DNA from: Acidobacteriaceae bacterium
GTDB taxonomy: Bacteria > Acidobacteriota > Terriglobia > Terriglobales > Acidobacteriaceae
DNA: 34,783 bases
Assembly (NCBI GenBank): GCA_003160215.1
Contig: PLQW01000090.1
Coordinates: forward strand, 80,307 to 115,089
Direction of reading: 5' to 3'
How positions within the stretch are numbered: position 1 is the stretch's first letter; every line of letters starts with the position of its first letter. Below are positions 1-28,782 of the stretch, in pieces. Made by a program: the position numbers and the translations under genes. The notes under the pieces are model-generated. The model did not search any database. It had not been told where the DNA came from and was given only the letters and a program-made list of their open reading frames with translations.

Positions 1-1555
1 TGGTAAAGAAAGGATCGAAAATGCGAGGCAGAATCGATTTATCGATGCCAGTTCCCGTATCGCTAACCGCTAACATCACGTAGCGTCCGGGTTGAACGGG
101 AGGGTGCTCCTGGGTGTACGCATTGTCTAAGTCGACGTTGGAAGTTTCGAGATGAAGGATGCCGCCTTCGGGCATGGCATCGCGCGCGTTGACAGCAAGG
201 TTGAGGATCACCTGCCCAACCTGGTTGGGGTCCAGCCGGGAATTCTCCAGCGTGTCACACAGGTTTGTCACCAGTTGAATGTCCTCTCCGATGATGCGGC
301 GCAACATGTGCGAAGTCTCGCTTACTACCGAGTTCATGTTGATGACGCGGACCTGCATAATCTGCTGCCGGCCGAGTGCCAGCATCTGCCGGGTAAGGGC
401 GGCGGCACGGTCGGCCGCTTTGGAAACTTGCAGCAGCAGCTTGCTGAGCGGATTATCAGGCGTGGTTTGAGCCAGCATCAACTCTGTCGAGAGCTTGATC
501 ACGACCAAAATGTTGTTGAAATCGTGAGCTATGCCTCCTGCCAGTCTGCCGACCGCCTCCAGCTTCTGCACCTGACGGACCTGCTGCTCCAACGCGCTCT
601 GTTGGGTCATGTCTTCGATGTAACCGGCGAAGTACTCCGCATTGGTATGAGCGTCGCGAGCGAGCGAACCTGAGATTCGCACCGGCACCGTGCTTCCATC
701 GTGCCGGAGCAGGCTGAGTTCATGACCATGAATTCTTATACTTCGCCTAAGCACCTCGATCAGCCGGCCGCGATCCTTAGGGTCCGAATAAAGCCCGGTT
801 GAGAGTTTCAGGCCCATGGCTTCGTCGACGCTGTATCCGCCCAGGATCTTCAGCATCGCTGGATTCAGAGATTCAAAACGGTCCTCGTCGAGCGAAGTCC
901 GGCTGATACCGAAAGGTGCGCTGTCCACCAGTGCCTGCAGCGAGGCCTGCGATTGCCTCAGCGCCTCCTCCATCGATTTGCGTTCGGTGACATTGTTGGC
1001 CAGCACCAATTCGTAGGGATGGCCGTCTTGCTCGAATCGAAACGCTCTGATCTCGGCGAATAGAAGACTGCCATCCTTCCGGCGGTGGCGCCAGATTCCC
1101 GCACAGTTGAACCCGAGATAGACCTGGTTCATAAGATCCAGTAACGCCGGTATCTCCTCAGGAGGGCGGATATCCAAGAGAGTCATCTCCAGGAATTCTT
1201 CCCGGAAAAAACCATAGGTCTGCACGGCGGCATCATTCACGGAGACAAAGCGCAGGGTGGCGCAGTCATAAACCCACATGGGGTAGGGATTGGAGGAGAA
1301 GAGGAGCTGCTGCTGGTTTTCGGCGTCGCACGAACGCTGCGATTCGGCCGCCAATTCCTGGCGCAGGCGCACCAGTTCCCGATCGCAACTAAGCTTGCGT
1401 TGGAGCAACCAAAGCAACGCCCGGCCCCGATCACGAGCGCGACGATGACGAAGAGCGGCATCCGGCCAGACCCGCGCAAAAGCGATATCTCCCAACCGGC
1501 TGTCGGGAGCGTTCGTACAGGCGCCGGTTTCGAACTCCGTAACCCTGCCGTGCAA
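1..1555 (-). CDS. PAS-domain sensor histidine kinase (partial, left edge)
   Basis: Reverse-strand reading gives a continuous frame entering at the left edge. From the N-terminal side it shows a coiled stretch (ELVRLRQELAAES), a first PAS domain (SNPYPMWVYDCATLRFVSVN, then the PAC motif WRHRRKDGS), a second PAS domain (LQALVDSAPFGISRTSL), then a HisKA helix with phospho-acceptor His in GRLAGGIAHDFNNIL. The HATPase domain has the N box (QVILNLAVNARDAMPEGG), the G1 box (DTGTGID) and the F box (ILPRIFDPFFT); the rest, possibly with a receiver domain, lies outside the window. It should autophosphorylate and pass phosphate to a response regulator not seen here. The frame is open from 1618 but has no ATG until inside the first PAS domain. 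TTG codons at 1555, 1495, 1417 and 1408 are the possible starts; none has a good Shine-Dalgarno, so the stated start is only nominal. No signal peptide or membrane helix appears in this frame. Confidence 0.85.
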   Translation of the reverse strand, partial: MHGRVTEFETGACTNAPDSRLGDIAFARVWPDAALRHRRARDRGRALLWLLQRKLSCDRELVRLRQELAAESQRSCDAENQQQLLFSSNPYPMWVYDCATLRFVSVNDAAVQTYGFFREEFLEMTLLDIRPPEEIPALLDLMNQVYLGFNCAGIWRHRRKDGSLLFAEIRAFRFEQDGHPYELVLANNVTERKSMEEALRQSQASLQALVDSAPFGISRTSLDEDRFESLNPAMLKILGGYSVDEAMGLKLSTGLYSDPKDRGRLIEVLRRSIRIHGHELSLLRHDGSTVPVRISGSLARDAHTNAEYFAGYIEDMTQQSALEQQVRQVQKLEAVGRLAGGIAHDFNNILVVIKLSTELMLAQTTPDNPLSKLLLQVSKAADRAAALTRQMLALGRQQIMQVRVINMNSVVSETSHMLRRIIGEDIQLVTNLCDTLENSRLDPNQVGQVILNLAVNARDAMPEGGILHLETSNVDLDNAYTQEHPPVQPGRYVMLAVSDTGTGIDKSILPRIFDPFFT

Positions 1556-1618: not shown

Positions 1619-1978
1619 CTATCGATCAGCTACGCGAGCGAGCCGTGCAGGACTTGAGGCAGCGCATGGCACCTTTGCAATAGCAATAAGCTCCCGCGCG
1701 CGTGACGCGGGAGTGATTCGACCTATCTAGTTAGCAGTTATACCACCTTACAGCCTGTTATCTATAGCATATTCTGGCATGTTGACATGCCACTTTTATA
1801 GTATACGCCTGGGTGCGGATTCGGAACCGCAGGGGGTTATCGCCAACCTGCCGCGATATCAAGGCATCTGGGCAGCGGTGGGAACGCTTCGGGGATGGTG
1901 GACCAGCGGCGTACAATCGCTAACGCTGGCCCGTCAACGGGCAAGAAATAAAATTGTTTCAGGAAATCGAGGTTCCTC
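1619..1978. other. Spacer with two hairpins, no confident gene
   Basis: No ORF here looks like a protein family. Two perfect hairpins stand out. One at 1691-1713 has an 8-bp stem (CTCCCGCG/CGCGGGAG) and a 7-nt loop but no T run. The other at 1775-1792 is TGGCATGTTGACATGCCA, followed by CTTTTA. The stretch around 1720-1810 is markedly AT-richer than the surroundings and may hold the promoter of the downstream gene, but I see no well-spaced -35/-10 pair. The first hairpin lies just after a plus-strand frame ending at 1683 that looks weakly protein-like (see findings). Confidence 0.4.
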
Positions 1979-2422
1979 ATGTCACTTTGGCAGGTCGGTG
2001 TGCAGATGGCTACGGGTAAGCTGCCCAAGGTCATCAAGCCTCGGCCACACGCGATGATCGACTACGCGGCCGCCGGATCATTCATGCTAATGGGCGCGTT
2101 GTGGTGGAGGCGCAACAAGCGGGCGGCTATCGGCTCTCTGATCTGCGGAGGAGCGACTGCCGTCAACAGCCTGCTGACGGATTATCCCGGCGGGATGTTC
2201 AGGGTCATCAGCTACAGACACCACGGCCGGATCGACGCGGGAATTGTGGGTCTGACAGCGGCCATACCGAGTTTCATGAACTTTAGGAACCAGCCTGAGG
2301 CTAGGTTCTTCATCCTCCGTGCTTTGGGGCAGACCGCAATTACAGGGTTGACGGATTTCGACTACTACGAGCACCCCTGGTCGCGGCGGCTTCGTCATGA
2401 GGAGAATGAACCTGCGGTGTAA
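1979..2422 (+). CDS. Conserved hypothetical membrane protein
   Basis: A 147-residue protein. The ATG is preceded at a suitable distance by GAGG (1967-1970). The N-terminal third has KPRPHAMIDYAAAGSFMLMG, a likely membrane helix after a conserved-looking HAxIDY motif. Next come a basic turn (WWRRNKRAA), a second hydrophobic segment (IGSLICGGATAVNSLL) with TDYPGG, and a third (GRIDAGIVGLTAAIPSFM). The C terminus is polar and acidic. An internal ATG at 2006 (MATGKLPKV) is the main alternative start. It resembles small acidobacterial membrane proteins with the same RRNKRAAIGSLICGG and TDYPGG signatures; I know no function for them. It is monocistronic, about 280 bases ahead of the sigma-factor operon. 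Confidence 0.75.
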   Translation: MSLWQVGVQMATGKLPKVIKPRPHAMIDYAAAGSFMLMGALWWRRNKRAAIGSLICGGATAVNSLLTDYPGGMFRVISYRHHGRIDAGIVGLTAAIPSFMNFRNQPEARFFILRALGQTAITGLTDFDYYEHPWSRRLRHEENEPAV

Positions 2423-6652: not shown

Positions 6653-6677
6653 TGCTGGTTCACCACAGAGACACAGA

Positions 6678-6701
6678 GGCACGGAGAAATCCGTGCCTTT
6701 T
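6678..6701 (+). terminator. Intrinsic terminator of the sigma/DUF4097 operon
   Basis: A perfect 8-bp stem, GGCACGGA (6678-6685) and TCCGTGCC (6690-6697), encloses a GAAA tetraloop and is followed by TTTT. It begins 25 bases after the DUF4097 stop. Its left arm is the end of a CACCACAGAGACACAGAG word repeat starting at 6659, so the terminator appears built from a dispersed repeat. Confidence 0.75.
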
Positions 6702-6851: not shown

Positions 6852-6877
6852 GACTGGAAACTCGAAACTCGAAACTA
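6852..6877. repeat. TTTCRAG word repeat abutting the cmk stop codon
   Basis: Read on the minus strand the cmk stop TAG runs directly into TTTCGAGTTTCGAGTTTCCAG. The same arrangement recurs at the lgt stop (13801-13780). Confidence 0.7.
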
Positions 6878-10809: not shown

Positions 10810-10822
10810 GACTTCAAGAGTA

Positions 10823-11130
10823 ATTCACCACAGAGGCACAGAAAAAGTATCTCAGTTTCGAGTTTCAAGTTTCAAGTTTCAAGTTTCGAGTTTCAAAGGA
10901 AGCTGGCTTCTTCCGCAATTGCCGGAACGTATTGGATTCACTATTCCATTAATTCACCACAGAGACACAGAGACACAGAGACACAGAGAAAATTTCTTGG
11001 TCTCAAGTTTCAAGGTTCGACCAAAATCGCTAAGCTGAAGAAGGGTGCCAAACGGAGAACTAGCGAAGTATCGGCGGTGAAAATTCGAAACCTCTCGAAC
11101 TGACCCCTAGCCCCTAGCCCCTAGCCCCCG
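10823..11130. repeat. Repeat-filled spacer: CACAGAG, TTTCRAG and CCCCTAG words
   Basis: No gene is seen between mutL and the VWFA gene. The spacer holds TTCACCACAGAGGCACAG (10824-10841), a run of six TTTCRAG-type units (10854-10896), and a longer CACCACAGAGACACAGAG array with three ACACAGAG units (10953-10989). A partial TCAAGTTTCAAGG follows, then three tandem CCCCTAG units (11103-11130) up to the VWFA stop codon. The words recur in other spacers of this window. Confidence 0.75.
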
Positions 11131-12354: not shown

Positions 12355-12436
12355 TTTTCACCACGGAGAACACGGAGGGCACGGAGAAGAAATAACAATA
12401 GAAACCCCGTGATCTCCGTGTCCTCCGTGGTGAAAA
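12355..12436. repeat. Two-armed CACGGAG inverted repeat
   Basis: TTTTCACCACGGAGAACACGGAG (12355-12377) and its inverse (12414-12436) match at 22 of 23 positions. They form a long hairpin with a 36-base centre that also contains GGGCACGGAG. This is a two-sided copy of the CACCACAGAG family seen one-sided at 6659, 10824 and 10953. Confidence 0.75.
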
Positions 12437-12514: not shown

Positions 12515-13555
12515 TCAGCCTCGAATCTGTTCCAGAAGCTGTGTCAATTCCGGAGGCAGCGGGGCGCTGAAGGAAAGCGGCTGACCGGTGCGGGGATGTG
12601 TGAACTCGATGGCCGCCGCATGCAGGAAGTTGCGACCGAGGGCGAGTACGATGGGCGTCTGCCTGGCTTTCGGCTGGCTTGCGCCCCGAGAGGTCGCTTT
12701 GGTTGAGGCCGGTCGCAGAGCAGTAGGTCGGCGCAGTTCTCTCGGCGCCCGGTACAGCGAGTCGCCCACCACGGGATGGCCGATCGACGACATGTGCACG
12801 CGGATCTGATGGGTGCGGCCCGTCTCAATGCGAACGTCCACCAGCGCAAACTTGCCAAATTGCGAGGCTATCCGCTCGCGAACTTCATAATGGGTGATGG
12901 CTGCGCGGCCTCCGCGGCCACGGGTCGTCATGCGAATGCGCCGCACCGCATCGCGGCCGATCTCAGTATTGATGGTGCCGCGGTCTTTCGCCGGCCAGCC
13001 ATGCACGAGCGCCACGTAACGCTTCTTCACCTGCCGCCCCGAAAATTGCTCGCCCAGCTTGCGGTGGGTCACGTCGTTCTTGGCGACGATGATCAGCCCG
13101 CTGGTTTCCTTGTCGAGACGGTGCACGATCCCCGGGCGCAGCGCGCCGCCCACATCCGATAGCTTGGCGAAGCGATGCAGCAGGGCGTTGACCAGCGTTC
13201 CGCGATTGCGTTCGTCCTCGGTGGCGCCCGCTCCGGCGTGCACCATCATTCCCGCTGGCTTGTTGATGACAGCCAGGTCGTCATCCTCATAGACGATGTC
13301 GAGCGGGATGTCCTCAGCGATGGCGCGCAACGGCGGAGGGTCAGGGTCGCCGAGGATGGCGATCTGTTCGCCGCCGCGGAGCCGAAGCGACGGCTTGGAG
13401 ACGCTACCGTTGACCAGGGCTTTCTGTTCCGCCAACAACTGCTGCACGCGGGCGCGGCTGATATCGGGGATTTGTGCGGTGAGGAATTGATCGAGCCGTT
13501 GGCCAGACGCATCGGCGGTGACGAAGATCGTTATGGGGAAGCGGTCTGACGGCAT
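12515..13555 (-). CDS. RluD/RluA-family 23S rRNA pseudouridine synthase
   Basis: A 346-residue protein. Residues about 12-75 form an S4 RNA-binding domain (GQRLDQFLTAQIPDISRARV). The catalytic domain carries DDDLAVINKPAGMMVHAG, GIVHRLDKETSGLIIVAK (motif II with the catalytic Asp in HRLDKETSG), KKRYVALVHG and ETGRTHQIRVHMSSIGHPVV. S4 plus this order is typical of RluD, which converts uridines of helix 69 of 23S rRNA, but paralogues (RluC and others) cannot be excluded. About 35 residues of low-complexity sequence (LRRPTALRPASTKATSRGAS) interrupt the C-terminal region. The ATG follows directly after a TTTC/GGAAACT word repeat, which supplies a GGA 5-7 bases upstream of the start. Confidence 0.92.
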   Translation of the reverse strand: MPSDRFPITIFVTADASGQRLDQFLTAQIPDISRARVQQLLAEQKALVNGSVSKPSLRLRGGEQIAILGDPDPPPLRAIAEDIPLDIVYEDDDLAVINKPAGMMVHAGAGATEDERNRGTLVNALLHRFAKLSDVGGALRPGIVHRLDKETSGLIIVAKNDVTHRKLGEQFSGRQVKKRYVALVHGWPAKDRGTINTEIGRDAVRRIRMTTRGRGGRAAITHYEVRERIASQFGKFALVDVRIETGRTHQIRVHMSSIGHPVVGDSLYRAPRELRRPTALRPASTKATSRGASQPKARQTPIVLALGRNFLHAAAIEFTHPRTGQPLSFSAPLPPELTQLLEQIRG

Positions 13556-13801
13556 GAGTTTCGAGTTTCCAGTTTCGAGTTTCCAGTTTGCGGAACGGTT
13601 GGGAGTTCGTCAACGACAGAGTGGAGCGCCAGGAGAGCGGGAAGCTCAGAACTGAGCGCTGCTTACTCAACCGGTGAGCTTCTCTATTTCTCGCTTGTCA
13701 TCCCGATCGACGAGCCTGCGACCCGGCAAGGGGTCGAGGAACCTGCCGTTCGCCACACCGGCCCTTTGCTGGGCCCACTGGAAACTGGAAACTGGAAACT
13801 A
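13556..13801. repeat. Spacer with TTTCRAG/GGAAACT words and a half GTCATCC element
   Basis: Between the RluD-type gene and lgt there is no gene. Four TTTC(G/C)AG units (13557-13590) touch the rluD-type start codon. A GTCATCCCGATCGACGAGCC half-element begins at 13697. Three GGAAACT units (13780-13800) run into the lgt stop codon. Confidence 0.65.
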
Positions 13802-16261: not shown

Positions 16262-18295
16262 TCATTGCGCGCGCAGCACGCCGCCCAGCGATTGCAGTTT
16301 CGCGACGATCTTCTCCGACCATTGCGCCACTTCGTCGTCGCGTAATGTGCGCTCCTTCGACTGGAACTCCGCGTGGAGCAGCACCGAGTACTTGCCGGGG
16401 CCAACCTTCTCGCCGCGAAAGATCTCTGCCGGAACGAACTGCTGTAGCTCGGCCAGCCCCAACTCTTCGACGGCCGACCGGATGCGCTCGAAGGTGGTCG
16501 CTTCATCGAAGATGAACGAGAAATCGCGCTCCACCGCCGGGAACTTCGAGATGCGCCGATAACGCGGCTCGCGCAAGGGATGGCGATACAGGCGGTCGAG
16601 CATTAACTCTGCGACGTAGACCTCCTGGCGTAACTTGCGAGCAGCCGACAGGTCAGGATGCAGTTGCCCAAAGCAGGCAAGGGTCTCGCCGTCCATCGCC
16701 GCGCGCGCCGAGCGGCCGGGATGGAAGTACGGCGGCGTCTGATCGTCGAAGTGCAGCTTCTGATGCTCGAAGGCCGCAAGCAGCTCTTCGACGTCGCCCT
16801 TCATGTGGAAGAACGTGTACGGCTGCGCCAGCGAGTGGACGCTCTTTGCGATGGCGTCGCCGGTAGCGACAAAACCCAAGTGTCGGCGCTCATCGTGCCG
16901 GTCGCCCAGCTTCTCGAATACCTCGCCTGCCTCGAACAGCCGCACGTTAGAGTTGCCGCGATTCACGTTGTATCCCACCATGTTCAGCAGGCCGGGGATA
17001 AGCGAGGTGCGCAGATAGCCCGCCTCATCACTCAGCGGATTGGCGATGGCCCGCGGCTCGCCTCCGCCGAAGGCCTTGGCCTCCGGCCCGGAGATGAAGG
17101 TGATCGAAATGCTCTCGTTGTAGCCGAGCGCGAGCATGGTCTCGCGAACCCTCGCATTCTTCGGCTCGTCGGGCAGCGCGACGACTGCCCCGACAAACGC
17201 GGGCAGCGTGTTGGGAAACTTGTTGTATCCGTAGATACGCGCCAGCTCTTCCAGTAAGTCAATCTCGCGCTCCACGTCGAGACGCCAGGTGGGAACAAGT
17301 GCGCTGAAGTCGCCTGCTGCGGTGCGGGTGACGCCGAAGCCGAGCCGCCGCAGGATGCGCTCAATCTCATCCCCGTCGATATCAACACCCAGGTTGCGCC
17401 TGACTTCCGAGCGGCACAGGGCGATCGGCGGGCGCTCCGGCTTGCGGGCAACGGCATCGATCTGCTCGCCGTGTAACTCGCCGCCGGCGCTCGCGAGAAT
17501 TAGCTCGGCTACGCGATCGCAAGCCAGCGGCGTAATGCCCCAGTCAGCGCCGCGCTCGAAGCGATGCGACGCGTCGGTGTGCATGAGGTGGCGCTTGGCC
17601 ATGCTGCGCACCGTCGCCGGGTCGAACCATGCCGACTCGATCAGCACGTTCTTGGTCTGCTCGGTAATCATCGAGTCGAAGCCGCCCATGACGCCTGCCA
17701 GCGCCACAGGCTTTTTCCCGTCAGCGATGACCAGGTCATCGGTCGTGAGCTTGCGGTCCACGCCGTCGAGAGTCTTGAGCAACTCGCCTTCGCGCGCGCG
17801 ACGCACAACGATGGTGCCGCCTTCCAGCAAGTCGAGATCGAACACGTGTGTCGGATGGCCAAGCTCGTTCAGGGCGTAGTTCGTCGCGTCGGCGGCGTTG
17901 TTAATGGGACGCGAACCCAGCATTTCGAGCCGCTTGGCGATAGGCTGCGGCGATGGCCCGACCTTGACGTTGCGAACGATGCGCGCGGTATAACGCGCAC
18001 AGCCCTGGGCATCTTCAATCACGATAGGGAAGTTTCCGGTGCTATTAGGCTGCGGTAGCTTCGGCTCGACCTTCTTCAGATCGACGTTGTAGATGGCCGA
18101 CGCCTCGCGCGCCACGCCGTAGTGGTTCATGGCGTCCACGCGATTGGTGGTCAGGTCCATCTCGAAGATGACCGCGCCGTTCTCTTCCTGGACAGACTCC
18201 ACCGCGATTCCGGCCGAAGTCAGGTCCTCGGCGAGTTGGCGGTCGGCGGCGGCAACGTTGACGAACTCACGCAGCCATGCGGGGAGGATTCTCAC
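16262..18295 (-). CDS. pheT: Phenylalanyl-tRNA synthetase beta subunit (short form)
   Basis: A 677-residue protein. N-terminal LPAWLREFVNVAAADRQLAE and AGIAVESVQEENGAVIFEMD run straight into LTTNRVDAMNHYGVAREASA, so the OB-fold tRNA-binding domain (about residues 40-150 of E. coli PheT) is absent. B3/B4 editing domain: INNAADATNYALNELGHPTH and KPVALAGVMGG. B5 and core: IERILRRLGFGVTRT, then ELARIYGYNKFPNT. C-terminal ferredoxin-fold anticodon-binding domain: FPAVERDFSFIFDEATTFER and GKYSVLLHAEFQSKERTLRD. With PheS it charges tRNA-Phe and edits Tyr-tRNA-Phe. It lies 430 bases downstream of pheS. Confidence 0.95.
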   Translation of the reverse strand: MRILPAWLREFVNVAAADRQLAEDLTSAGIAVESVQEENGAVIFEMDLTTNRVDAMNHYGVAREASAIYNVDLKKVEPKLPQPNSTGNFPIVIEDAQGCARYTARIVRNVKVGPSPQPIAKRLEMLGSRPINNAADATNYALNELGHPTHVFDLDLLEGGTIVVRRAREGELLKTLDGVDRKLTTDDLVIADGKKPVALAGVMGGFDSMITEQTKNVLIESAWFDPATVRSMAKRHLMHTDASHRFERGADWGITPLACDRVAELILASAGGELHGEQIDAVARKPERPPIALCRSEVRRNLGVDIDGDEIERILRRLGFGVTRTAAGDFSALVPTWRLDVEREIDLLEELARIYGYNKFPNTLPAFVGAVVALPDEPKNARVRETMLALGYNESISITFISGPEAKAFGGGEPRAIANPLSDEAGYLRTSLIPGLLNMVGYNVNRGNSNVRLFEAGEVFEKLGDRHDERRHLGFVATGDAIAKSVHSLAQPYTFFHMKGDVEELLAAFEHQKLHFDDQTPPYFHPGRSARAAMDGETLACFGQLHPDLSAARKLRQEVYVAELMLDRLYRHPLREPRYRRISKFPAVERDFSFIFDEATTFERIRSAVEELGLAELQQFVPAEIFRGEKVGPGKYSVLLHAEFQSKERTLRDDEVAQWSEKIVAKLQSLGGVLRAQ

Positions 18296-18425
18296 GCAGG
18301 CCTCATGGCTGGTTCGAGGGAGACAGATGATTTTCGGCCAGCTTCTCGGACGAGGAATGAAGCAAAGAAAGCCGATTTCCCATTAAAGCCTCGAGTAAGG
18401 AATGAAGCCGCCATTGCGAAAAAAA

Positions 18426-18514
18426 CAGTCCCGCGAGCGGGACGGCTTAGCTTAGCCCAGCGCTTCAGCGCTGGGTAAGGGTGGTGAGTAATCCTGAGTC
18501 CCGTAGGGACGGTA
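18426..18514 (+). repeat. Three-hairpin A-B-A palindromic unit, copy 1
   Basis: Hairpin A: GTCCCGC-GA-GCGGGAC (18428-18443). Hairpin B: CCCAGCGC-TTCA-GCGCTGGG (18456-18475). Second A: GTCCC-GTA-GGGAC (18498-18510). Gaps are 12 and 22 bases. The A hairpins are framed by (G/C)AG on the left and CGG on the right. It lies in the pheS-pheT spacer. Confidence 0.75.
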
Positions 18515-18530
18515 GAGGAGAACGAGTCTG

Positions 18531-18613
18531 CCGTGCCTACGGCACTCCAATCCATTTTTACGCCTACCCAGCGCTGAAGCGCTGGGCTAAACTGAGCCGC
18601 GCCTACGGCGCTG
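18531..18613 (-). repeat. Three-hairpin A-B-A palindromic unit, copy 2
   Basis: Opposite orientation to copy 1, head to head across about 20 bases: GTGCC-TAC-GGCAC (18533-18545), CCCAGCGC-TGAA-GCGCTGGG (18567-18586), GCGCC-TAC-GGCGC (18599-18611). Gaps are 21 and 12 bases. Stem bases of the A hairpins differ from copy 1 but both arms change together. Confidence 0.75.
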
Positions 18614-18725
18614 GTTTTGGCACGGTTCTGACTTTGCCGTATAAGCCAGGCTTTCTCGCGCTTCGAGCTACCATCCTCGAAGCCGATAACACTGGCCAAC
18701 CACACGGTCATTGAGAGAAAACTTT

Positions 18726-19829
18726 TCACGCGAACTGCTCCAAAAAGCGTACATCGCCTTCGTAGAACAACTGGATCTCTTCTACCTCGTACTTCAGGAT
18801 TGCGATGCGCTCCACGCCCATGCCAAAGGCGAAGCCGCTGATCTTCGACGAGTCATAGCCGTTCTGCTTCACGAAGTCGAAGACGTTGGGGTCTACCATG
18901 CCGCAGCCGAGTAGTTCGATCCAGCCGCTGAATTTGCACTTGCGGCAGCCTTTCCCACCGCAGAAGATACAGCTCACTTGCATGTCGGCGCTGGGTTCGG
19001 TGAAGGGAAAGAACGACGGATAGAAGCGCGTCTTCACCGACGAGCCGAACAGCGCCTTCATCGCGTGGTCGAGCGTGCCCTTCAGATCGCAGAAGGTGAT
19101 GTTGGTGTCCACCGCCAGCCCTTCGACCTGGTGAAACACCGGCGAGTGAGTCGCGTCGAGCGGATCGTTGCGATGAACCTTGCCCGGAATGACGATGCGC
19201 ACCGGCGGAGGCTGCTGCTCCATGGTCCGAATCTGCACCGGCGAAGTGTGGGTGCGCAGCAGCAGGCGATCGCGCGCGGGCTTGCTCTCCTGGTCGGCGA
19301 TGAACAGCGTGTCTTGCGTGTCGCGCGCGGGATGGTTCGGCGGGAAGTTCAGCGACTCGAAGTTGTAGTAGTCGGTCTCAACCTCGGGGCCTTCGCCGAC
19401 GGAGTAGCCCATCGCCTTGAAGACGGCGACAATCTCGTCCATCACGCGCAGCACAGGATGCTTGACGCCGATGGGGCGCTGGATGCCGGGAAGGGTGATG
19501 TCGAGGCGGTCGGCGGCCAGCTTCGTGCTTGAGGCCGAAGCGTGGATTTTGTCTTGCGCCGCTTCGATGGCGGCTTCGGTGCGCGCCTTGAGTTCGTTGA
19601 CGCGGCGGCCGACCTCGCGCTTAGCCGGGCCGGGCGCGGCTTTCAGCCAAGTGTCATTGATCTGTGTGAGCACGCCGTTTTTGCGAGCAAGCCAGCGGTC
19701 GTGGAAGGCTTTCCAGTCGGATTCGCTGTGGAGATCGCGGCTTTCGGCGTCAAGCGCGGAGAATAATTCGGCCACGGCGCGATCCAACGCCTCAGGGGAG
19801 TAGTCCTCGAGTTTTGGGACGGTATACAT
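18726..19829 (-). CDS. pheS: Phenylalanyl-tRNA synthetase alpha subunit
   Basis: A 367-residue protein begun at MYTVPKLEDYSPEALDRAVA; a longer in-frame start at 19889 would translate repeat sequence and is rejected. The N-terminal coiled coil contains KARTEAAIEAAQDKIHAS. The class II core has HPVLRVMDEIVAVFKAMGYS, NFPPNHPARDTQDTLF (motif 1 region), LLRTHTSPVQIRTMEQQPPP, IPGKVHRNDPLDATHSPVFH (motif 2) and GFAFGMGVERIAILKYEVEE (motif 3). A CIFCGGKGCRKC stretch adds four cysteines near GWIELLGCGMVDP. It forms the catalytic half of the tetramer with PheT. The leader contains the palindrome GCGCGGC-TTCC-GCCGCGC at 19840-19857, 11 bases from the ATG, and no clear Shine-Dalgarno. Confidence 0.96.
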   Translation of the reverse strand: MYTVPKLEDYSPEALDRAVAELFSALDAESRDLHSESDWKAFHDRWLARKNGVLTQINDTWLKAAPGPAKREVGRRVNELKARTEAAIEAAQDKIHASASSTKLAADRLDITLPGIQRPIGVKHPVLRVMDEIVAVFKAMGYSVGEGPEVETDYYNFESLNFPPNHPARDTQDTLFIADQESKPARDRLLLRTHTSPVQIRTMEQQPPPVRIVIPGKVHRNDPLDATHSPVFHQVEGLAVDTNITFCDLKGTLDHAMKALFGSSVKTRFYPSFFPFTEPSADMQVSCIFCGGKGCRKCKFSGWIELLGCGMVDPNVFDFVKQNGYDSSKISGFAFGMGVERIAILKYEVEEIQLFYEGDVRFLEQFA

Positions 19830-19857: not shown

Positions 19858-19869
19858 TCAGGTCTTGTG

Positions 19870-19958
19870 CCGCCCCTGAAGGGGCTCAAATCTCAAATTG
19901 CAATCTACCCAGCGCTGAACCGCTGGGCTAAGCTGTTCCGTCCCGCAGGCGGGACTCG
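19870..19958 (-). repeat. Three-hairpin A-B-A palindromic unit, copy 3
   Basis: GCCCC-TGAA-GGGGC (19872-19885), CCCAGCG-CTGAAC-CGCTGGG (19908-19927), GTCCCGC-AG-GCGGGAC (19940-19955), gaps 22 and 12 bases. It has the same orientation and spacing as copy 2, and lies in the leader of pheS on the same strand. Confidence 0.75.
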
Positions 19959-20005: not shown

Positions 20006-20140
20006 GTCATCCCGACCGAGGACTTCAGTCCGAGCGGAGGGGCCTGCTTTTGGTGCCGCCCCTAAAGGGGCTCGGAATCTTCTTGGTGGGCGCGGTAAAT
20101 GATCCGAGTCCCTTCAGGGACGACACCGCAACCAAAAATC
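20006..20140. repeat. Half GTCATCC element and an inverted pair of A hairpins
   Basis: TGTCATCCCGACCGAGG begins at 20005 with an internal GGAC-TTCA-GTCC (20020-20031). GCCCC-TAAA-GGGGC (20058-20071, minus orientation) and GTCCC-TTCA-GGGAC (20108-20121, plus orientation) follow. The pair is bounded by GCTTTTGGTGCCG and its imperfect inverse ending in CAACCAAAAA. No gene is visible in 19890-20180. Confidence 0.6.
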
Positions 20141-26877: not shown

Positions 26878-28782
26878 ATGAAGTCAGTCATTGTCGGCAC
26901 CGCGGGCCACATTGACCACGGCAAGAGCGCGCTGGTACGGGCCCTTACCGGCATCGATCCCGACCGCCTGGAGGAGGAGAAGCGGCGCGGCATCACCATC
27001 GACCTGGGCTTCGCCAATCTCGACTTGCAAAGTCCCGATGGAGAGCCGATCCGCATTGGCTTGGTCGATGTGCCCGGCCACGAGCGCTTTGTGCGCAACA
27101 TGCTGGCCGGCGTCGGCGGCATCGATCTGGTGCTGCTGGTGGTGGCGGCCGACGAATCCGTCAAGCCCCAGACCCGCGAGCACTTCGAGATCTGCCGTCT
27201 GCTTGCGGTGCAGCGTGGCATTACCGTCCTCACCAAGGCCGACTTGGTTGACGCCGAGACCCTGCAAGTCGTCGGCATGGAAGTGGCAGAGTTCCTCCAA
27301 GGCTCGTTCCTCGATCCGGCAACTTCGCCGATTATCCCTGTCAGTTCCAAGACCGGCGCGGGACTCGACCAACTGCAACGCGAACTGGCGCGGCTGGCCG
27401 CCCAGGTTCCGGCCAAAGACTCCAGCGCAGTCTTCCGGCTGCCGATTGATCGCGTGTTCACCATGAAGGGTTTCGGAACGGTGGTTACCGGCACTCTGAT
27501 CTCGGGCACGGTCCACAAAGAGCAGGAAGTCGAAGTCCATCCTACCGGCAAGCGCCTGAGGGTGCGCGGAGTGCAGGTGCATGGGCACTCGGCGGAAGAA
27601 GCCATCGCCGGACAACGCACGGCGTTGAACCTCGCCGGCGTGGAAACCACTGAGCTCGCTCGCGGCATGATGCTGACGCCGCCAGAAATGTTCCATCCGG
27701 TGGTCCGCTTGGGAGTGCAGCTTGACCTGCTGCCTTCGGCAAGGCCACTGCGGCAGTATGCTCGCGTCCACTTGCACGTGTTCGCGGCGGAGACCATCGC
27801 GCGCGTGACCCTGCTGGGCGCAAAGCAGCTTCTGCACGGCGAGTCGGGATTCGCGCGCTTGAAGCTCGACCGTCCGATCGTGTTGTTCCCCGGCGACCGA
27901 TTCATCCTCCGGCAGTATTCGCCCGTGATCACCATTGGAGGAGGCCGCGTGCTCGACGCCGGCGACCCGCCGATACGTATTGCACGCGATCAAAGCTTGC
28001 CCTTTCTTCAGACCATCGCCAACGCCAGCCCCAGGGAAGCGCTGTTGGCGCGCATAAATCGGCGGCGGATTTTTGGACTCACCCTTGCCGAAGCCGTGGC
28101 GGAAACGGGATGGCTCCCCGCTCGCGTGCAACAGCTCGCCGCTGAACTAAAGCAGGCGGGCGAGATAGCGATTTTCGGCAACGTTCTGATCACCTCCCGC
28201 TGGCTGGAAAGAATTCGTCAGGACATCCTGTCCCTTGCCCGTCACTTCCATGACGCCAACCCTTTGCTGGCGGGAATCAACAAGGAAGAGCTTCGCGCAG
28301 CAAAGTGGGGCTATCCCGAGCTGTTCGATGGAGTCGTCGCTGCGTTGCTACGCGAAAAGAAGCTCGAAGCCGACGGCGAGCTGCTGCGACTTCCCGGCCG
28401 CGGCGTGGTTCTCCGCGACGAGGAGGCCGAATCGAAGTCGCAGATCGAGCAGGCCTTCGCCAAGGCAGGCTTGCAGGTCCCGGCGCTCAAGGACGTACTG
28501 GCCTCGCTGCCGGTGGACAAAGTGCGCGCGCAGAAGATTCTCACGCTGCTGCTGCGCGATCGCGTGCTGATCAAGCTTTCGGATGACCTGGTGTTTCATC
28601 GCGATGCGCTGGAAGCCATGCGCCGGCAGATTGTCGCGCAGAAAACGAAAACACCCAAGCTCAACGTGGGAAACTTCAAGGACCTCTTCGGGGTAACGCG
28701 GAAATACGCCATCCCTCTGCTCGAATATCTCGATCGCGAGCGGGTGACGCGCCGCGTGGGGGACGAGCGGGTCATTCTCTGA
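26878..28782 (+). CDS. selB: Selenocysteine-specific elongation factor SelB
   Basis: A 634-residue protein. The GTPase domain has [55 protein letters not shown] and [12 protein letters not shown]. Domains II/III follow with [40 protein letters not shown] and [20 protein letters not shown]. The C-terminal half holds tandem winged helices ([58 protein letters not shown]) that bind the SECIS hairpin of selenoprotein mRNAs. It delivers Sec-tRNA to UGA codons. No selA, selD or tRNA-Sec is visible in this window. Confidence 0.95.

Follow-up and report, generated by a model that had tools for sequence, protein, structure and literature searches.

The spacer between pheS and pheT in this Acidobacteriaceae genome is very probably a non-autonomous, REPIN- or MITE-like copy of a small transposase-repeat system, its two ends abutting without the gene. 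In full form the element reads A-B-A, tnpA, A'-B'-A', where A and B are hairpins and tnpA encodes a 145-residue HuH/Y1 transposase of the IS200-like subclass 1.2. Four observations form the basis of this reading: copies are dispersed, they flank tnpA in inverted orientation, their stems covary almost only by Watson-Crick exchanges, and the spacer itself is derived. The draft genome to which the 34.8-kb window belongs (G000) comprises 5.34 Mb in 292 contigs.

Both genes lie on the minus strand. The gene for the alpha subunit of phenylalanine-tRNA ligase, pheS (18726-19829; TIGR00468, 309 bits), has its stop at 18726-18728 and its start placed at the ATG at 19829 by comparison with relatives, and pheT, for the beta subunit (16262-18295; TIGR00472, 588 bits), begins with a GTG at 18295. 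The gap is 18296-18725, the 430 bases given in the initial annotation, and the two head-to-head A-B-A units described there are borne out by sequence, folding and model scores; their mirror centre, put at about 18520, has its midpoint near 18522. The hairpins extend from 18428 to 18611 and the doublet overall from about 18424 to 18616. The left unit (18426-18523), which reads A-B-A on the plus strand and is one three-hairpin unit on the minus strand, scores 78.7 bits with the three-hairpin model R1 (18429-18522) and 49.0 bits with Rfam RF01687 (18427-18475). The right unit, A'-B'-A' on the plus strand (18519-18613), scores 82.8 bits (18521-18613) and 55.8 bits (18567-18612), respectively. Both spacer units were part of the R1 training set; RF01687 is an independent model, and both exceed its 37-bit covariance-model cut-off.

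The left unit opens with the outer A hairpin GTCCCGCGAGCGGGAC (18428-18443), which on the minus strand is followed by TGTTTTTTTC and is terminator-like. Hairpin B, CCCAGCGCTTCAGCGCTGGG (18456-18475), and the inner A hairpin GTCCCGTAGGGAC (18498-18510), helix 1 of the model, complete it. On the other side of the centre are the inner A' hairpin GTGCCTACGGCAC (18533-18545), also found by the three-hairpin model, hairpin B' CCCAGCGCTGAAGCGCTGGG (18567-18586), recovered by inverted-repeat comparison, RF01687 and the three-hairpin model, and the outer A' hairpin GCGCCTACGGCGC (18599-18611). Immediately 5' of hairpin B on the plus strand is an unpaired foot, TTAG (18452-18455), of an NTAG form common in the copies; by its likeness to the GTAG of REPs it is a candidate guide or cleavage motif. 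The two halves have in common a 40-nt inverted repeat, 90% complementary, and with their inverted arms and folds they form a REPIN-type arrangement of two close inverted units able to make one long hairpin. As single-stranded RNA the 193-nt doublet folds at -122.5 kcal/mol versus -70.6 for shuffled sequences (z -11.8), and folded as DNA it gives a z of -9.3. A third full unit, A'-B'-A' on the plus strand (19860-19954), lies upstream of pheS, some 30 nt from its ATG, and scores 66.1 bits with R1 and 35.9 bits with RF01687, just under the cut-off. The three-hairpin model also detects degenerate pieces of units at 20046-20133.

The same unit is found throughout the genome. At least 116 full three-hairpin units were recovered with the covariance model, together with 75 RF01687 matches and 64 BLAST matches, and a pattern for hairpin B matched 54 times compared with 3 for the reversed control pattern. 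All eight congeners carry units, from 26 to 139 each. The copies keep a common order of outer A, B, linker and inner A, and their hairpin B is preceded by TTAG, ATAG or CTAG, not by GTAG or GT[AG]G. Abutting pairs in the (-,+) orientation are present in several genomes. On account of this dispersal we rejected a regulatory repeat specific to pheST. An exact search of viral contigs with the extended B motif returned no match.

Among the Y1_Tnp genes of the genome, the best is an intact tnpA for a 145-residue protein (L001:1405-1842), located between inverted units at 1307-1356 (minus) and 1940-1988 (plus). Since an intact tnpA is flanked by units of the same kind in the same inverted order, the pheST doublet corresponds to that element minus its gene; its terminal inverted repeats match those around the autonomous gene, as expected of a MITE. 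The second tnpA of the genome, on contig C205, is frameshifted and likewise has units on both sides. The L001 protein carries the motifs NHIH, WQ and YIGNQAEHH, and H53, H55, Y110 and Q114 are invariant in 18 sequences, giving the HuH pair and a single catalytic tyrosine in a Y---Q context. By its tyrosine motif, WQ and length the protein fits the IS200-like subclass 1.2, marked by DH[IV]H, WQ, YIKNQKEHH and a median of 148 residues (Quentin et al. 2018, PMC6006769), and it falls outside the TnpAREP class (class 2) with its Y..NP motif. Subclass 1.2 has been recorded without REPs, mostly in Cyanobacteria and Bacteroidetes (PMC6006769). The closest relative of L001 TnpA in named genomes, at 70% identity, comes from an Acidobacteriaceae metagenome-assembled genome, which makes membership of that family most likely for the host. 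In another genome, locus L255 holds a truncated tnpA of the same subclass with both ends present, which resembles an internal-deletion intermediate. In congeners G005 and G008 the tnpA locus is empty, but the intergenic sequence there has diverged too far for the exact ends of the insertion to be located.

A classical IS200/IS605 insertion sequence, or a simple deletion derivative of one, is a very improbable reading of the element. TnpA does match the NCBIfam IS200/IS605 family, its nearest solved structures are IS608-type transposases, and like IS608 and ISDra2 the element combines a HuH/Y1 transposase with ends made of hairpins and short unpaired motifs. Here, however, the ends are inverted with three hairpins each, the repeats vastly outnumber tnpA, and in place of several near-identical full copies the genome has one intact and one broken tnpA that have diverged to about 71% DNA identity.

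The association of unit and transposase extends well beyond this genome. Among 20 tnpA loci of the phylum Acidobacteriota, RF01687 was found on both sides of the gene in 13 and on at least one side in 16, on the expected strand, and the three-hairpin model added L112, L113 and L115 to the flanked loci. When named genomes were searched with a profile of the transposase alignment, 80 loci were recovered, picked by their protein and not by their flanks. Rfam scanning of 16 of these loci placed RF01687 beside the gene in Planctomycetota, Verrucomicrobiota, Calditrichota, Deltaproteobacteria, Nitrospirae and Chloroflexi, so that at least seven bacterial phyla have it as a flank of subclass 1.2 tnpA genes. 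Where RF01687 matches in these 20 phylum and 16 named-genome loci, it lies on the minus strand before tnpA and on the plus strand after it, at a near-constant distance, and the inner hairpin, outside the Rfam model, is also present. A covariance model built from Acidobacteriota units only was then run on 79 loci outside its training set. In 55 of the 79 it placed a unit no more than 150 nt from the gene, and in 35 on both sides, with expected to other strand at 45:5 upstream and 50:6 downstream (about 9:1). No unit was detectable in 24 of the 79, 13 of which belong to Bacteroidota, where 8 of 21 loci have one. When the left flank of each locus was compared with its right flank without a model, 42 of the 79 loci exceeded the 99th percentile of mismatched flanks. 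Among 19 control loci with other Y1 genes only L255 was flanked, itself a tnpA fragment of the same subclass. Two tandem arrangements were also seen: in Planctomycetes bacterium Pan216 five head-to-tail copies of the unit, each of 95 nt, lie upstream of the transposase (L180:1514-1988), and L157:2654-2943 holds a 50-nt array of alternating A and B.

Across 297 genomes of the phylum, RF01687 occurs in 58 of 66 with this tnpA and in 20 of 231 without it, an odds ratio of 76 whose p-value is inflated, as the test ignores shared ancestry. Four genomes (G094, G197, G213 and G252) are rich in the repeat, up to the 20 copies scored, and no Y1 gene was found in them. Within the RF01687-rich genomes that lack this tnpA, no alternative Y1 gene was flanked by units except the fragment L255.

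RF01687 is known as Acido-Lenti-1, a candidate small RNA typed "Gene; sRNA" in Rfam, and its model covers only the outer two hairpins of the unit (B and outer A). Weinberg 2010 grades it "probably RNA", the open-access papers that name it give no function, and a 2026 paper states that little is known of what it does. With this classification and the very stable RNA fold of the doublet, Acido-Lenti-1 could be a genuine small RNA, in which case the pheST copies would be two RNA genes or an RNA element carried in mRNA; we consider this very unlikely. The 13 pairs of the model were examined in an alignment of 150 units, all from loci that had not been used for training: 97.2% of cells were paired (about 1,790), double-sided changes numbered 441, and only 6 cells were G-U as against 51 mismatched. 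RNA helices usually accept G-U pairs, which here are nearly absent and fewer than mismatches. The tRNA control for G-U content is weak because the DNA used held only three tRNAs. Covariation that is almost only Watson-Crick points to a DNA hairpin rather than RNA, and what selection favours would seem to be perfect palindromes in the DNA. Also against a small RNA, the copies occur in both orientations, as inverted pairs and around one transposase subclass. We infer that RF01687 represents the outer two hairpins of a transposon DNA end and is not primarily an RNA gene; some copies may nevertheless act as transcribed RNA or within mRNA.

The pheST site itself has a traceable history. The two genes had been described as normally almost gapless, and this holds in 5 of 8 congeners (G002, G004, G005, G006 and G008), where the spacer is empty and the two genes share a 4-bp overlap (GTGA or ATGA); the 430-nt spacer is therefore unusual and derived. 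Two other genera of the family (G018 and G028) have the same overlap, which is most likely ancestral. Among congeners, a homologous spacer with the doublet is common to G000 and G007 only, and single units are found in the pheS-pheT spacers of G003, G015 and G023. The spacer exceeds the 188-nt doublet and has GCGTGA at both of its ends, with the ends of the element inside it; its downstream flank (18296-18425), considered as part of a larger repeat, had no copy in the genus other than those of G000 and G007. We propose that the common ancestor of these two genomes acquired roughly 430 nt where the genes overlapped by GTGA, which would have left both genes whole with an open frame between them.

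Further differences were seen around this site. In G007 rplT precedes pheS, and homology to the window ends inside the third unit (19860-19954; L245:2499-2593), so that a rearrangement breakpoint, taking pheST away from the rplT neighbourhood, seems to lie within a repeat copy. In several relatives (L241, L216, L219 and L224) the pheS-pheT spacers contain small intact-looking open frames, those of L219 and L224 apparently related, and in L241 and L216 a repeat unit shares the spacer with the frame. The alignment of the window's PheT with the bacterial PheT model starts at model position 159, so that the usual N-terminal region is lacking; also absent from this protein is a variable in-frame insert, which most congeners (L239-L246) have near residue 83. 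Another interspersed repeat, TTCACCACAGAGACACAGAG, occurs in the window at 6659-6687, 10821-10989 and 12355-12436 with a related inverted pair, and similar sequence is present in the pheST spacers of relatives. Short AGTTTC-type arrays (AGTTTCGAGTTTCAAGTTTC) occupy several gaps on both strands (6853-6876, 10840-10900, 13543-13589 and 13777-13800). The window also encodes selB (26878-28782; TIGR00475, 396 bits), and the organism thus probably makes selenoproteins.

The initial annotation had further suggested that the units affect pheT expression or transcript stability. Strong hairpins in the sense direction, one of them terminator-like, uphold part of this, whereas the dispersal of the repeat argues against a dedicated pheST regulator; judged from the sequence, a possible effect on pheT would be a side effect. 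The more specific alternative is that the doublet is a selected regulatory device, in which pheT is attenuated by the hairpins together with the terminator-like A stem, and the attenuation is lifted when the spacer frame is translated. An open frame of 145 codons on the minus strand does span the whole spacer (18292-18729), its GTGA overlapping the pheS stop and its TGA the pheT GTG start, and the homologous frame of the sister genome G007 is open over 158 codons with GTGA overlaps at both ends. A frame that overlaps both genes in both carriers hints that translational coupling has been kept. For each genome alone, the chance of such a frame in random sequence of the spacer's composition is about 0.006, a figure that applies to a frame noticed after the fact. 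Given the changes observed between G000 and G007, however, the chance of the frame staying open is 0.26, and because of shared ancestry the second genome adds little. We found no third-position excess that would mark amino-acid selection on the frame: substitutions fall on all codon positions and are mostly non-synonymous. Similarly, the terminator-like stem with its T run (18421-18443) points towards pheT in G000, but the T run is interrupted in G007 and two terminator-like sites were seen where 0.8 were expected. An SD-like GAGG lies 5 nt before the pheT GTG. As the spacer is also absent from most congeners, we regard a selected device as unlikely. Its translated form, which we hold to be similarly doubtful, would have ribosomes leave pheS, restart at GTGA, melt the hairpins and the terminator-like stem and restart at the GTGA of pheT, and a repeat insertion would thereby have been turned into translation-dependent control of PheT.

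For the preferred reading, a copy of the transposase-repeat system that lacks its gene, a mechanism can be proposed from REP and IS200 transposases, which recognise single-stranded hairpins and cut at a short unpaired foot (PMC8266576). By analogy, TnpA would most likely recognise the hairpins and NTAG foot in single-stranded DNA, such as that of the lagging-strand template, and cut at the foot, here NTAG before B, allowing units to spread. Doublets without a gene would arise by loss of tnpA, as L255 illustrates, and then spread in trans. The genomes compared yielded no transposition event with exact ends. Effects on pheT would be secondary; hairpins or partial termination would cause them, and ribosomes translating the spacer might lessen them.

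The closest known systems are REPtron/REPIN and IS200/IS605. As in REPtrons, where a TnpAREP (RAYT) gene is associated with REPs, BIMEs and REPINs, a Y1 gene, here one intact tnpA in the genome, lies between high-copy dispersed palindromes that often form inverted pairs; L001 and the 35 held-out loci with units on both sides have this organisation. Unlike REPtrons, the transposase is of subclass 1.2 (Y---Q--HH), the unit has three hairpins and the foot is NTAG rather than GTAG. TIRYT elements or TIRtrons, described also from Acidobacteria (Di Nocera 2013), likewise carry a tyrosine transposase; the long inverted repeats on either side of it are partly self-complementary, and some form dispersed families. 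They are set apart by their transposases as described, which belong to subclasses 2.1, 2.2 and 2.5 (PMC6006769) and not 1.2. Acido-Lenti-1 as published (Weinberg 2010) is matched above the gathering cut-off by two copies in the window; in contrast to its filing as an sRNA, it is here part of a three-hairpin transposon end, and its range goes beyond the two phyla after which it was named.

An orphan Rfam RNA family thereby gains a concrete identity, and a transposase subclass reported without REPs gains a repeat partner; both can be tested with the cutting assay already used for REP transposases. The labels that annotation pipelines give to such copies in Acidobacteriota, Planctomycetota, Verrucomicrobiota and others would change. 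A REP-like system in a transposase lineage nearer to the true IS200 enzymes also bears on the origin of domesticated transposases.
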